Below, piece by piece: positions 20,780 to 33,431 of a DNA stretch of 64,000 nt; within the stretch, counting starts at the first letter, position 1; the number at the start of each line of letters is the position of its first letter. The position numbers were made by a program, and so were the translations under genes. This DNA comes from Veillonella infantium. GTDB lineage: Bacteria; Bacillota; Negativicutes; Veillonellales; Veillonellaceae. The stretch covers positions 62,001 to 126,000 of the forward strand of contig NZ_PPDD01000008.1 of assembly GCF_002959895.1 (NCBI RefSeq), in the 5' to 3' direction. The notes under the pieces are model-generated. The model ran no database searches. It was not told the DNA's origin and worked only from the letters and a program-made list of their open reading frames with translations.

Positions 20780-21766
20780 TTATTCCTTTTCACTAAACCC
20801 AATATTAAATAGATTTTCAAATTGAGTAATAGATTCTGGCAAGATAGCTTTATATTCCTTATAGAATGCTTGTAGTTCCTCAGTGGTAATTTGAATAACA
20901 TTCTTCATCTCTTCTAAATTATCAACCTTAGGTGCATATAAATAGATATAATAGCCTTTGTTTTCGTAGTCCTTGAAAGAAAGAGCATTTAACGCTGGCG
21001 CTTTAGGCCCTTTAACTTGTACAACAGCCTTTTTAACATCATTTACATCGCGGGAAATTAACTGACACTCAATTTTTACAGTCGTTGATTTATTAGCAAT
21101 GGAGTTCGAAAGAAGATAATAGCCTTTTACAATTTGAATGTAAGAAATTACTAACTCCTCCAATTCAAAATCGGGTAAATTCTCTATTACATTATTCGCT
21201 ATACTTAAATTAATATCATAGTAATTTTTACCAGATAATTTATTAAACACAAATTTAGAGTATTCGGTGATAGCTGGATATTGTAATCGCTGAACAATTC
21301 CACCTCTTGCACGATTAAACGATGCTTTTATCTGACCAGGTACTTCAAGCTCGAATTCATAAGCTTCAACAGGTAAAATCGCACCTATATCTAACTCTCT
21401 ATTTAAATAGGCCTTAGCAGGATTTTTTACTCTACAAATCCAATACACACCATTTAGGTCTCGCGTCCAAAACAGATCATTTACACGAGCGTCTTTAAAT
21501 ATCTTTAAAGCTGGATTTAATCGTCGATTTTGTCCATGTACATACTCTACTACGGTATCATAAAACGCAGAGTAGTCATCAGATTTAAAATCAACACAAC
21601 TCCAACCTATAGCTAAAAATTGAGCCTTACCTTGAGCTTTCTCATCATCAGTAAATTCATTTTTACCATTTAAACAGAAATCAATTAACTCCTTCCTATG
21701 ATCTGTAGCTGTTTTTAAGTTAATCCTCGTAACATAAACCTTTTCATCTGAGTTATTATTTTCCAT
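20780..21766 (-). CDS. unknown protein with EVE-like N-terminal and PD-(D/E)XK-like C-terminal features
   Basis: Not recognised as a named protein (328 residues). The N-terminal half holds FLAIGWSCVDF (50-60) and DLFWTRDLNGVYWICRV (97-113), reminiscent of EVE/PUA-like modules that read modified bases. The C-terminal half holds LEELVISYIQIVKGYYL (202-218), IECQLISRD (232-240) and AVVQVKG (247-253), which resembles the core of Mrr-like PD-(D/E)XK nucleases with a Q-x-K final motif. If so it would be a solitary modification-dependent nuclease. No methylase or helicase is adjacent. Codon use looks more AT-rich than in the ribosomal neighbours. The function is an inference only. Confidence 0.5.
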   Translation of the reverse strand: MENNNSDEKVYVTRINLKTATDHRKELIDFCLNGKNEFTDDEKAQGKAQFLAIGWSCVDFKSDDYSAFYDTVVEYVHGQNRRLNPALKIFKDARVNDLFWTRDLNGVYWICRVKNPAKAYLNRELDIGAILPVEAYEFELEVPGQIKASFNRARGGIVQRLQYPAITEYSKFVFNKLSGKNYYDINLSIANNVIENLPDFELEELVISYIQIVKGYYLLSNSIANKSTTVKIECQLISRDVNDVKKAVVQVKGPKAPALNALSFKDYENKGYYIYLYAPKVDNLEEMKNVIQITTEELQAFYKEYKAILPESITQFENLFNIGFSEKE

Positions 21767-21826
21767 ACTGTTTCCCCTTTACAAACAAAATATATTTACA
21801 CTATACCATAAATTAAACACAAAAAA

Positions 21827-21853
21827 ACACCTGCAGACATTGTCTGCAGGTGT
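21827..21853 (-). terminator. intrinsic terminator after rpsI
   Basis: A perfect 13-base inverted repeat (21827-21839 with 21841-21853) and a seven-base U run on the minus strand, 21 bases beyond the rpsI stop. Confidence 0.93.
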
Positions 21854-25213: not shown

Positions 25214-25289
<76 letters not shown>

Positions 25290-25292
25290 ATG

Positions 25293-25367
25293 TGGTGACC
25301 CGTCCGGGAATCGAACCCGGGATACCGCCGTGAAAGGGCGGTGTCTTAACCGCTTGACCAACGGGCC
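25293..25367 (-). tRNA. tRNA-Glu (anticodon TTC), distal copy
   Basis: 75 bases with encoded CCA; anticodon loop CTTTCAC between a six-pair CG-rich stem. Matches the copy at 25619-25693. Confidence 0.95.
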
Positions 25368-25376
25368 ATATGAAAT

Positions 25377-25452
25377 TGGCTCCTCGAGTAGGACTCGAAC
25401 CTACGACCGATCGGTTAACAGCCGATTGCTCTACCAACTGAGCTATCGAGGA
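25377..25452 (-). tRNA. tRNA-Asn (anticodon GTT), distal copy
   Basis: 76 bases with encoded CCA; anticodon loop CTGTTAA, acceptor stem TCCTCGA/TCGAGGA. Matches the copy at 25779-25854. Confidence 0.96.
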
Positions 25453-25459
25453 ACATTAA

Positions 25460-25534
25460 TGGAGCGGGAAACGAGATTCGAACTCGCGACCCCCGCCTTG
25501 GCAAGGCGGTGCTCTACCGCTGAGCTATTCCCGC
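25460..25534 (-). tRNA. tRNA-Gly (anticodon GCC), distal copy
   Basis: 75 bases with encoded CCA; anticodon loop TTGCCAA, acceptor stem GCGGGAA/TTCCCGC. Matches the copy at 25860-25934. Confidence 0.96.
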
Positions 25535-25537
25535 ATG

Positions 25538-25613
<76 letters not shown>

Positions 25614-25618
25614 ATATG

Positions 25619-25693
25619 TGGTGACCCGTCCGGGAATCGAACCCGGGATACCGCCGTGAAAGGGCGGTGTCTTAACCGCTTGACCAACGGGCC
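25619..25693 (-). tRNA. tRNA-Glu (anticodon TTC), proximal copy
   Basis: Same sequence as 25293-25367; CCA encoded. Confidence 0.95.
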
Positions 25694-25697
25694 AGAA

Positions 25698-25773
25698 TGG
25701 TGACTCACCCGCGACTCGAACGCGGGACACCCTGATTAAAAGTCAGGTGCTCTGCCAACTGAGCTAGTGAGTC
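25698..25773 (-). tRNA. tRNA-Lys (anticodon TTT)
   Basis: 76 bases with encoded CCA; anticodon loop CTTTTAA, acceptor stem TGACTCAC/GTGAGTCA. The only single-copy member of the array. Confidence 0.95.
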
Positions 25774-25778
25774 ATAAA

Positions 25779-25854
25779 TGGCTCCTCGAGTAGGACTCGA
25801 ACCTACGACCGATCGGTTAACAGCCGATTGCTCTACCAACTGAGCTATCGAGGA
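25779..25854 (-). tRNA. tRNA-Asn (anticodon GTT), proximal copy
   Basis: Same sequence as 25377-25452; CCA encoded. Confidence 0.96.
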
Positions 25855-25859
25855 ATGTA

Positions 25860-25934
25860 TGGAGCGGGAAACGAGATTCGAACTCGCGACCCCCGCCTTG
25901 GCAAGGCGGTGCTCTACCGCTGAGCTATTCCCGC
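25860..25934 (-). tRNA. tRNA-Gly (anticodon GCC), proximal copy
   Basis: Same sequence as 25460-25534; CCA encoded. First tRNA of the transcript. Confidence 0.96.
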
Positions 25935-30868: not shown

Positions 30869-31588
30869 TTAAAAGAAAACGCCTTTAGATTTTTCTTTAG
30901 TTTCTTGATCTGCAATAAATGGAATTCTAGTAGTTCTACCTTCTTTGGCCGCTACAATCTTTTTAAATGGGAATTCAAAGATTTCTCTATTCCAAGTATT
31001 TACAGCATCATTATACAACGTTCTAGCTGCAGTAATTTCTTTTTGTAAGTAAGAATTTTGTTGCATTGCATCACGAATTGTATCTTGGCTTTGTAATTCT
31101 GGATAATTTTCTATAGCTACGTTGAGGGCTCTTGTAGCCTTGTTAAGTTGTGCATTCACATCACTTCTAGATTCTTCAGAAAAATTACCACTTCTATACT
31201 TAGCAATGTCTACAAGGATATCCTTATCAACTTCAATAGATTTTTCCACAAGTTTAGCCGCATTAGAAAGAATCACAACACGTTGCTCCATATAGTTATC
31301 AATTTCAGATGCAGCATTTTGAATTCTTTGTTCCATCATATTAAACTCTGAGCTAATTTGTTTTAATCGCCACCATGGATAAATCAATACAATGGCGCCA
31401 ATAATAGATACTAGATACTTGTCTATAACTATGCCTAAAACGATACCGATAACACCAACTGCCATAAGGATCGTTGGAAGAAGTTTTTCAAAGCCACTAG
31501 TTTCAACAGGGATTACCTTAGCGATAACATGCACATCTCTGCCTTCAGACATAATTTCCGGATTCATTTCGTCGAGTTGGTTAGCCAT
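30869..31588 (-). CDS. LemA-family protein
   Basis: A 239-residue protein with two adjacent membrane segments near residues 34-72 and a long helical LemA region (about 80-205) containing YMEQRVVILSNAAKLVE and ENYPELQSQDTIRDAMQQ. The function of LemA proteins is unresolved. ATG 31588 (MANQLDEMN) is chosen because GGAGG lies eight bases upstream; the longer frame from 31603 lacks a site. The start lies inside the last codons of the preceding 616-residue gene (8-base overlap), so the two are probably co-translated. A usual LemA is shorter and has one N-terminal segment, so the extra N-terminal hydrophobic segment is unusual. Confidence 0.85.
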   Translation of the reverse strand: MANQLDEMNPEIMSEGRDVHVIAKVIPVETSGFEKLLPTILMAVGVIGIVLGIVIDKYLVSIIGAIVLIYPWWRLKQISSEFNMMEQRIQNAASEIDNYMEQRVVILSNAAKLVEKSIEVDKDILVDIAKYRSGNFSEESRSDVNAQLNKATRALNVAIENYPELQSQDTIRDAMQQNSYLQKEITAARTLYNDAVNTWNREIFEFPFKKIVAAKEGRTTRIPFIADQETKEKSKGVFF

Positions 31589-33431
31589 TTTGGGTACCTC
31601 CAAATTCTTTGTAAATAGTATTTAATAAATCGTCGAGAGACTGATTTTGTCGATATAGTTTACCTGCCATAAAGTGATCGTATGCAAAAGACCGATCTCT
31701 ATTATTTTCAGATTTTTGATACTGGTCTAGACCTTTAATATGATTAAAATCCTCTCCAGCAGATTTAATTTCTGAAACCTCTATCAATTCGTGTTTTGTA
31801 ACAGGAACATACTCGTCCCAGCGGACTGGTACATAATAGGTTCTACCATTACCCGCTCGCACAGGCACTTCATCTATGTGTTCAATCGTTCTATACGAAT
31901 AGGCATCTACCTTAATCACTTCTGAGTCACCTTCATTTTTATGGTGGCTAGTCTTAAGGATTGTTTTTACATTATTACGCTCCGACGCATTAGGGGGAAC
32001 AAATAAATTGAGTCCCATTTTATTGGCTAGCATTTCTGTAATGTAATCATTATATTTGAAAGCATAAGATTTACTATAAATATAATCATTAGATGCCATC
32101 TGTTGATACACAGGAATTGCTAAAATTGGGAGGAATGAGAAATACATATGATCAAAGTAACTACAGTTGTAATTAATGAACTTCTCTTTAATCTTTTCGA
32201 ATGAAAAATCATAATACTGAGATGGTGATGTATCAAAGTCCCAATTTTGAGAATTGTCAGCATTAATCTCATTAATTTTACACTCTTTATTAAATATAAA
32301 GTCATCTCCATATGGAGAGTTTTCAAAAATATCCTTATAGTTGTTTTGTGCTAATGGCGTAAATAGTACGCGGAACTCAACCTCATTGTTGCGATCTAAT
32401 GCATTAAATTGTGCATCAAACTCTTCATTGGCTAAAGCTTGGAAGCTTCCGCCATTCTCCAATGAATCCTGACTCTTCTGTCTAAGACTAGCAATACCTT
32501 TTGCTATCTTACTCTTAGCGCTACCGAAATTAAAGAATCCTTTTTCCGGTGGCTTCCTATGGAATGTTAGGTTAGGTGCTGCATGATTACCATACACTAA
32601 AGATACTTTATTGGCATAATAAGGACCAGGTTGTCTTATAACGGCCCGTAATGTTTCGTTAACATCACGAGTTTTTAGATTCCCATTAGAATCAACATAC
32701 TCTTCTGTATACGTAACATTTAAGGTGCCTTCATACGTATAATCATCCATCCAGTGGATTATGCGCTTCAGAAAAACAAAAGGGTTTCCTAAAATATCAC
32801 CAGAAGCAATATCTAAGGTGGAATGATTCACATCACCTTTTTCTAAGAATCCATAATCTTTAACGAGCTGTTCATATCGTTCAATATTAAAGTTAGAATC
32901 CATATGAATAAAGGGAATCGCCTTTTTTATAAGTTCTACAGTCATTTCACTATGAAATAGATTGTTTAAAGGGGCCATCATCTCATAGCCTTCTTGACGC
33001 ATTTTAGCTAATGTAGCATCTAAATCATTAAGTTTTTCTTCAAGGCTTTTACTATTAGGCTTAATCCAATATAGGTAAAGCCCTACACATAGAACTAATA
33101 TAAGTATAGAAACAATAACCGCTACAATATCAATATACTCTTGTGAAAACTGATAAATACCATAAATAATGGCACCTATACCAATAACAATATCAACCTT
33201 TTTAATAATGCCAAATCGTTTATATGATGTATTCGATTGGTCCCGATTTTCTGATACAGCAGTATACTTATCTATTAATACTTTATTGTTATCTATATCA
33301 ATCTTTGATTGATCTACTAGTTGTTGAAAGTATTCTTCGGTTACTTGTTGGAAGGAATCTTTTAACTCTTCCCGATAATACTTAAGTGGCTCTAGTAATG
33401 CTTCATTATATTCATTCGACACGTTACTCAT
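31581..33431 (-). CDS. large membrane protein of unknown function coupled to LemA
   Basis: Not recognised with confidence. The 616-residue protein opens with a charged helical region (1-70), then two membrane segments (about 79-95 and 101-122), a helical stretch (about 130-155) and a long soluble part without known catalytic motifs. Proteins of this layout encoded beside lemA sometimes carry a DUF3137 domain; I cannot establish that here. GVPVRAGNGRTYYVPVRWDEY-like beta segments occur near residue 530. It overlaps the lemA start by eight bases. AAGGAGAGG precedes the ATG at 33431. The lower GC of this pair compared with neighbours may indicate accessory origin. Confidence 0.6.
   Translation of the reverse strand: MSNVSNEYNEALLEPLKYYREELKDSFQQVTEEYFQQLVDQSKIDIDNNKVLIDKYTAVSENRDQSNTSYKRFGIIKKVDIVIGIGAIIYGIYQFSQEYIDIVAVIVSILILVLCVGLYLYWIKPNSKSLEEKLNDLDATLAKMRQEGYEMMAPLNNLFHSEMTVELIKKAIPFIHMDSNFNIERYEQLVKDYGFLEKGDVNHSTLDIASGDILGNPFVFLKRIIHWMDDYTYEGTLNVTYTEEYVDSNGNLKTRDVNETLRAVIRQPGPYYANKVSLVYGNHAAPNLTFHRKPPEKGFFNFGSAKSKIAKGIASLRQKSQDSLENGGSFQALANEEFDAQFNALDRNNEVEFRVLFTPLAQNNYKDIFENSPYGDDFIFNKECKINEINADNSQNWDFDTSPSQYYDFSFEKIKEKFINYNCSYFDHMYFSFLPILAIPVYQQMASNDYIYSKSYAFKYNDYITEMLANKMGLNLFVPPNASERNNVKTILKTSHHKNEGDSEVIKVDAYSYRTIEHIDEVPVRAGNGRTYYVPVRWDEYVPVTKHELIEVSEIKSAGEDFNHIKGLDQYQKSENNRDRSFAYDHFMAGKLYRQNQSLDDLLNTIYKEFGGTQNG

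Follow-up and report, generated by a model that had tools for sequence, protein, structure and literature searches.

Fusions of an EVE domain to a PD-(D/E)XK domain were described as putative type IV enzymes by Bell et al. 2020 (PMC7641849), where EVE-McrB is given as the commonest architecture among the EVE proteins of defence systems. VcaM4I, an EVE-HNH protein, is likewise a one-chain reader and nuclease (PMC7897488), and MspJI is described as combining an SRA-like domain with a Mrr-like one whose site is PD-QxK (PMC12707154). The EVE domain of VcaM4I is reported as a reader of 5mC/5hmC, and YTH-McrB as a reader of 6mA (PMC11037411). McrB GTPase domains often carry insertions, which are likely specificity domains (PMC11090510). 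PDC-S02 belongs to the phage-defence candidates (PDCs) of a 'guilt-by-embedding' screen, most of which are unvalidated, and is mainly bacterial (PMC12988326). It was called 2,715 times by software in a rumen survey (PMC13356809), and the name also appears in PMC10855318 and PMC11878078. In the passages of the literature examined, PDC-S02 appears as software calls, and no phage-defence or other functional assay of it was found.

Herein, we analyzed a gene in a 64,000-nucleotide stretch of Veillonella infantium DNA (the window), whose source genome is 2.02 Mb. The ORF, at window positions 20780–21766 on the minus strand, is intact, starts with ATG, and encodes 328 aa, the last base of its stop codon being 20780. 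A 328-residue protein had been called here by the first-pass annotation, which named no strand, and all of the segments quoted from it were located in the translation: FLAIGW at residues 50–55, DLFWTRDLNGVYWICRV at 97–113, IECQLISRD at 232–240, and AVVQVKG at 247–253. The PADLOC profile PDLC04816 (PDC-S02) matched residues 12–320 with an E-value of 8.7e-47, covering positions 3–294 of 299, and by this match the protein belongs to PDC-S02, a phage-defence candidate family that was already catalogued. The profile match, the aligned relatives and a dN/dS of ~0.14 against the Veillonella parvula copy establish that 20780–21766 is a real gene; together with the predicted structure, they mark it as a PDC-S02 family gene for a predicted reader-nuclease. 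Like the PADLOC candidate, it shows a whole-length profile match, a single-gene organization and a patchy distribution, and no feature distinguished the two in anything compared. The family is defined as a single gene; here, the neighbours in the window are housekeeping genes, and no partner common to all inspected loci was seen by eye.

No Pfam family matched the 328-aa protein at a limit of E 10 (the program filters drop most matches above 0.1), so that the EVE, YTH, Mrr_cat (PF04471), and AAA models were all unmatched, and NCBIfam gave no match at the same limit. No PDB chain matched the protein by sequence (limit E 10) or its C-domain profile. The N-domain profile matched KDM4B alone among the PDB sequences (E 0.14 and 0.19), which was taken as chance, and PHROGs returned one meaningless match (E 0.22). 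Because no Pfam family was matched, the protein is placed in the EVE/YTH-PD(D/E)XK class by fold, not by a Pfam model.

Structure prediction followed by fold search, the check suggested in the first-pass annotation, returned neither an unrelated fold nor a site lacking acidic residues. The AlphaFold2 model, built on an alignment of 13 relatives, reached a pLDDT of 81.2 and a pTM of 0.80. In VIA-align, the N-terminal half (residues 8–183) superposed on the EVE domain of VcaM4I with Z 7.8 and an rmsd of 3.8 over 130 aa, and it also matched the YTH domain of YTHDF2 (Z 7.4) and the McrB N-domain of Thermococcus gammatolerans (Z 7.1). The C-terminal half (residues 191–315) superposed on the PD-(D/E)XK domain of MspJI with Z 8.8 and an rmsd of 3.2 over 123 aa, and matched AspBHI (Z 7.8) and FokI (Z 6.6). 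The two folds proposed earlier were therefore both recovered, each at a moderate level. From VIA-align, hhalign and the conserved residues, we delimited a predicted EVE/YTH-like (PUA superfamily) reader domain at residues 9–185 (window 21212–21742, minus strand). VIA-align and hhalign place a predicted Mrr/MspJI-like PD-(D/E)XK domain at residues 186–320 (window 20807–21211, minus strand), with a predicted site of E203, E233, Q250, and K252.

Fifty structure matches were listed. On the N-range, 39 were EVE, YTH or DUF55 structures, among them PH1033 and MJECL36, which we take to be EVE proteins. On the C-range, 10 were PD-(D/E)XK-type folds, headed in the list by the modification-dependent enzymes MspJI and AspBHI; RPB5, AF1548, and a stretch of Avs4 in this range presumably also have the PD-(D/E)XK nuclease-type fold. 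One listed MspJI match spanned both halves with Z 9.0 but an rmsd of 19.4, indicating that one half fits at a time; the listed matches of the N-terminal half are EVE/YTH.

Considering that these Z values (6.6–8.8) are moderate, a profile-profile test was added. The hhalign profiles used 20 of the 27 EVE match rows and 29 of the 53 Mrr_cat rows (30 of the 53 had loci). The C-domain profile aligned with the 29 Mrr_cat segments at a score of 28.5 (P 2e-4, probability 47%, 101 columns), which was reached by none of 200 column-shuffled profiles (maximum 18.5). The N-domain profile aligned with 20 bacterial EVE segments at a score of 23.3 (P 0.0036, probability 9%, 33 columns only), and its 200 column shuffles all stayed below this score, with a maximum of 19.2. 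When the pairings were swapped, P was 0.09 and 0.56. The profile matches, at 47% for Mrr_cat and 9% over 33 columns for EVE, are modest. Foldseek against the PDB gave low TM-scores and no match reaching E 1e-3; MspJI ranked first (1.6e-3) and the repair enzyme EndoMS second (2.1e-3), with Bax1 and another repair endonuclease lower. Against viral structures, a single match fell under E 1e-3, namely BFVD A0A8S5NVT7, which has 336 aa and comes from Myoviridae sp. ctEBR14 (E 1.9e-4, TM 0.32, 370-column alignment); by structural similarity, it is a possible phage-borne distant relative. EVE and YTH were tied as the type of the N-domain, and the target base may be of the cytosine or the adenine type. 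Since the two kinds of reader recognize different bases (PMC11037411), the fold does not fix the target base.

The hhalign alignment with Mrr_cat placed E203 opposite the Glu of the Mrr 'FE' helix and E233 opposite the catalytic Asp of 'GxD', and Q250-V251-K252 was in register with Mrr Q-x-K. The active site proposed previously, with acidic residues at 203–204 and Q250/K252, thus holds for the Q-x-K part, whereas E203 and E204 lie in the helix equivalent to 'FE', and the place of the catalytic Asp is taken by E233, which had not been named. By this register, E233 is the likely catalytic acid, and the window protein has E as the first catalytic acid where Mrr has D. E203, E204, E233, Q250, V251, and K252, together with W55, W100, R102, and D103, did not vary in the 13-row close alignment. 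The positions of E233, Q250, V251, and K252 were likewise invariant in the 13-row alignment A5, which leaves out the degenerate rows L007–L009.

The conserved residues of the N-domain are GW (54–55), W100, D103, Y108, and VPG (142–144), and W55, W100, Y108, and W109 are candidate base-pocket residues. The EVE profile alignment seems to set R102 opposite an EVE tyrosine (hhalign), which in our reading would be a pocket residue. The loop NSIANKSTT before E233 (residues 221–231, window 21074–21106) is near-invariant in the 13 relatives and has a pLDDT below 50; it may become ordered only upon binding of DNA or metal.

The E...QxK motif was kept in 21 of 24 full-length members. The other three, all from one genus, carry N for E and RIS for QVK and keep the reader half (L007 1465–2403 in G173, L008 1489–2400 in G284, and L009 1477–2400 in G207), indicating that part of the family cannot act as such a nuclease. 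This count drops L002, which is the gene of L024, the truncated L022 (N-domain only), and L003, a decayed C-domain fragment in which E and QVK can still be seen by eye. Inspection by eye also showed that L005 retains E...QVK, with G at the position of E203.

In 60 genomes of the genus, family and order, three matched, namely the window's own genome, that of V. parvula, and one of a sister genus in which a decayed C-terminal fragment is left; the gene was present in 2 of 14 Veillonella genomes. In 398 genomes of the phylum, the PDC-S02 profile matched 14, including the window's own, seven with full-length proteins and seven with the N-domain only. Four of these seven are McrB-like proteins with Walker A, 'IIDEINRG', and 'NTADR' motifs, and the N-domain lies between Walker A and Walker B in three of them and ahead of the GTPase in the fourth. 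Together with the insertions described for McrB (PMC11090510) and the EVE-McrB architecture (PMC7641849), this context supports a reader role of the N-domain.

Outside the phylum set, 11 of 72,556 plasmid records matched at E 1e-5, five of them from Streptococcus salivarius. Four of these five copies are annotated as 'ribonuclease D', which we rejected because the protein has no Pfam match. A protein search of 50,697 GenBank phage records gave no match at E 0.01. Single-protein scans of genome contigs and of viral contigs found no close relatives, and alignment-based scans of viral contigs found no relatives. Another scan of the genome contigs found 12 relatives at 49%–77% identity, from one Veillonella, five Streptococcus, and six Clostridia-type bins. 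The aligned relatives had 79% identity in V. parvula and 52%–57% in streptococci and Clostridia. In the tree, the window copy was firmly joined with V. parvula only; the 15-row set that includes it also holds the rows from streptococci and Clostridia, among which the branching order is for the most part not resolved, and some long branches of the tree are unsafe. This patchy pattern suggests transfer of the gene.

Neighbourhoods were taken from 6 of the 11 matching plasmid records. On one plasmid, the relative lies ~3.5 kb from a pair of DUF1837 and DEAD/DEAH helicase genes, and on another it lies ~2.5 kb from an AAA and retron-type HNH pair. Several loci of streptococci and Clostridia have WYL regulators adjacent to the gene or close by (L020, L027, L028, and L035 by Pfam, PADLOC or annotation; others by eye). 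AAA proteins with an M41-type domain lie nearby in L028, L030, and L035, and AAA proteins with a lid domain in L020, L027, and L029; the best PADLOC label for four of these nearby AAA proteins was IetA. In the clostridial loci (L028 240–2718; L030 9132–10397 and 13565–14542, the WYL gene by eye; L035 1116–2912 and 4365–5372; L020 6869–11054), the gene together with WYL and AAA forms a possible larger defence neighbourhood. As obligate partners, WYL and AAA genes were rejected and left out of the system, because by eye none was common to all loci and none was present in the window. The streptococcal copies adjoin a gene of 240–270 aa, which is DUF6994 on two S. salivarius plasmids (L018 9195–9923 and L023 7201–7947); the S. 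suis and S. infantis genes (L029 5965–6705 and L027 7186–7986) matched no Pfam family. In the five inspected genomes of family f41, the family of the genus with the degenerate copies (L132, L133, L135–L137), the gene adjoins the same neighbour, which we take to be cobyric-acid-synthase-like.

The description of the locus as accessory DNA was supported by its composition, distribution and empty site, yet the gene does not look recent by dS. A stretch of ~1.04 kb (window 20783–21820) is absent at the same site in six congeners, as determined by blastn and flank alignment. In these six of the 13 other Veillonella genomes (G002, G011, G009, G012, G003, and G006), the site is cleanly empty, with 10–102 bp between the rpsI terminator and the enoyl-CoA hydratase flank. 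The gene occupies this site in V. parvula. Different genes are found there in G005, G008, G010, and G013, and two genomes, G001 (contig end) and G004 (other genes), were not assessable for the empty site. No convincing target-site duplication or terminal repeats were found at the insertion. The G+C content of the gene is 32.3%, compared with 40.4% for the window, and is the lowest among the 52 frames that start with ATG and span 150 aa or more, not all of which are genes. Against the V. parvula copy, the dS of the gene is 0.92 and its dN/dS 0.135, compared with 0.54–1.00 and 0.025–0.056, respectively, for four neighbours (Nei-Gojobori script). The gene is thus under purifying selection and evolves faster than these neighbours. 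Because its dS is within their range, a recent horizontal arrival in the window strain is not supported; the gene was probably at the rpsI site before the window and V. parvula lineages split, and elsewhere it was lost or never gained.

In G008 (L063 4930–6301), the rpsI site holds a 202-aa gene that is presumably TMEM175-like, and the end of rpsI is partly repeated (82% over 51 bp). A 450 bp part of this site is 84% identical to L027 12601–13090, ~4 kb from the S. infantis PDC-S02 gene, which hints, by sequence similarity, at DNA exchange between Veillonella and Streptococcus.

The methyltransferases of the hosts bear on what the protein could read. The window genome has matches to C5-cytosine methyltransferases at two places (three rows), one weak N6_Mtase match (E 7.3e-6), which falls in a frame of 303 aa that resembles frames of several congeners, and no match to MethyltransfD12 or N6_N4_Mtase. 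V. parvula has two C5, one D12, and three N6_Mtase matches and none to N6_N4. Provided that these enzymes are active, a protein that reads 5mC regardless of context would damage both hosts, and one that reads 6mA in the same way would damage V. parvula. Since the carriers encode methyltransferases of their own, a strict sequence context or a phage-type modification would be the more likely target.

We consider it fairly probable that the gene product is a modification-dependent (type IV) restriction endonuclease that works as a single chain and without NTP. The stand-alone type IV-like reader-nuclease of the first-pass annotation is right in kind by the predicted folds, with the likely catalytic acid corrected to E233. 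The analysis shows the domain folds by prediction, the motif conservation, the purifying selection, and the patchy distribution with its empty site; base flipping, cleavage, the target and a role in defence are inferences beyond these results. By analogy with VcaM4I and its relatives, the EVE/YTH-like PUA domain would flip a modified base from duplex DNA into an aromatic pocket. The tethered Mrr/MspJI-type PD-(D/E)XK domain would then, as modelled on MspJI, cut the DNA beside the mark, with a putative metal site formed by E203, E233, Q250, and K252. The presumed target is phage or plasmid DNA that enters the cell bearing bases which do not occur in the host at all, or not in the given sequence context. 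Counting for the type IV reading are the whole-length PDC-S02 match, the fold lists, the Mrr register, the recurrence of the N-domain in McrB, the accessory signs, the gene pairs near the relatives on two plasmids, and dN/dS. Counting against it are the lack of a sequence match in Pfam and the PDB, the moderate Z values, the modest profile matches, E in place of D, the degenerate relatives, the methyltransferases of the hosts, and the rank of EndoMS.

More tentatively, and with less than an even chance in our estimate, the N-domain may represent a separate EVE/YTH branch that Pfam does not model. This branch would be common to the solitary E...QxK nuclease, to McrB GTPases (three of which carry it between Walker A and Walker B), and to small proteins that have a different tail. 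The mark it reads would be one not made by the hosts, either phage hypermodification or a strict context. The proteins of the one degenerate genus would then be a reader-only derivative with a dead nuclease.

Other explanations were weighed against the type IV reading. The YTH-like domain might read m6A or another mark on RNA, and the PD-(D/E)XK-like domain might cut or bind RNA, making the protein an RNase triggered by infection. In favour of this, YTH structures rank with the best matches of the N-domain, the 'ribonuclease D' annotation points the same way, and YTH-like domains in predicted RNA-targeting McrBC relatives as well as PD-(D/E)xK domains with reported RNase activity are described in PMC11090510. 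However, the lack of any Pfam match extends to the RNase D model, no RNA-defence gene was seen beside the gene within the window, and the C-domain is matched best by DNA endonucleases, of which two are modification-dependent. The top N-domain match is the EVE of the DNA enzyme VcaM4I, though it is tied with YTH. We regard an RNA target as unlikely. Equally unlikely is a nuclease for chromosome maintenance or repair instead of a defence gene. The second place of the mismatch endonuclease EndoMS in Foldseek, with Bax1 and another repair endonuclease below it, would fit such a role, and the same cobyric-acid-synthase-like neighbour in the five f41 genomes suggests stable inheritance there; but the gene is found in 2 of 14 congeners, its site is empty in six, its G+C is low, and copies lie on plasmids. 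Neither EndoMS nor Bax1 appears in the 50 VIA-align matches listed, although they are not thereby excluded.

The nuclease half might instead be structural or regulatory, so that the protein would act by binding modified DNA, either to block replication or to recruit a partner. In its favour are the three relatives without E and QVK that keep the reader half, and the use of E where Mrr has D. Against this, E...Q-V-K is retained by the window protein and by 20 further members, and the 13-row close alignment shows no variation at E203, E233, Q250, or K252; we give this explanation slightly less credence than an RNA or a repair role. That the fold assignments are an artefact of common arrangements and the protein is of an unrelated family is very improbable. 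The moderate Z values, the lack of a sequence-level Pfam match, and a model made from only 13 related sequences would allow it. On the other side, two separate methods agree on the C-terminal half, where the catalytic residues are in register and 0 of 200 shuffles reached the score, and the listed matches of the N-terminal half are mutually consistent and accompanied by a weak profile match.

Taken as a type IV enzyme, the protein can be compared with the described systems. PDC-S02 and the EVE-PD(D/E)XK fusions had both been put forward before as predictions, and the window protein is a further example. It shares with the putative enzymes of PMC7641849 an EVE/YTH-kind reader and a PD-(D/E)XK domain in one protein, but its N-domain has no Pfam EVE match and fits YTH about equally. 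MspJI and AspBHI have the same order of N-terminal reader and C-terminal Mrr-like PD-(D/E)XK domain with QxK, whereas the MspJI reader is SRA-like, its listed chains are longer (447–452 aa), and the window protein has E as the first acid. VcaM4I is the closest N-domain match and carries an HNH nuclease (PMC7897488) in contrast to the PD-(D/E)XK domain here. McrB proteins with an EVE/YTH-type specificity domain have a related N-domain fold, and the PDC-S02 profile matches inside McrB-like proteins; unlike McrBC, the window protein has no AAA+/GTPase domain, and no McrC-like match was seen among the 10 window neighbours scanned (9 of 10 with a Pfam match). For a defence-candidate family that is often called, these results provide a concrete anatomy with a reader fold, a nuclease fold, four predicted catalytic residues, and a natural degenerate branch. 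If the reading is true, the protein would be a compact candidate barrier of Veillonella to phage or plasmid DNA. A QxK enzyme encoded by one gene lends itself to easy testing and could yield a reagent with which modified bases are mapped.

The Pfam scan of the window neighbours agreed with the earlier remark that the gene stands alone among housekeeping genes. Upstream lie rpsI, rplM, and rpsD, and downstream lie enoyl-CoA hydratase, a 6-phosphogluconolactonase/glucosamine-isomerase-type gene and tatA, followed by a heavy-metal-domain gene. An intrinsic-terminator-like hairpin after rpsI, just upstream of the gene (window 21827–21853, minus strand), has a 12-pair stem with a T tail and contains a 13-nt perfect inverted repeat; for this reason, the gene is probably its own transcription unit. 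No convincing promoter of the gene was found, with 10 sites against 6.1 expected and one 9/12 site overlapping the start codon. Elsewhere in the window, positions 25214–25934 hold nine tandem tRNA genes with Val-Glu-Asn-Gly and Val-Glu-Lys-Asn-Gly blocks, which look duplicated. At 30869–33431, two overlapping genes of low G+C, encoding 616 aa (33.8%) and 244 aa (34.9%, an ATG-started frame), show helix-rich and membrane-like stretches by eye and are possibly another accessory insertion.
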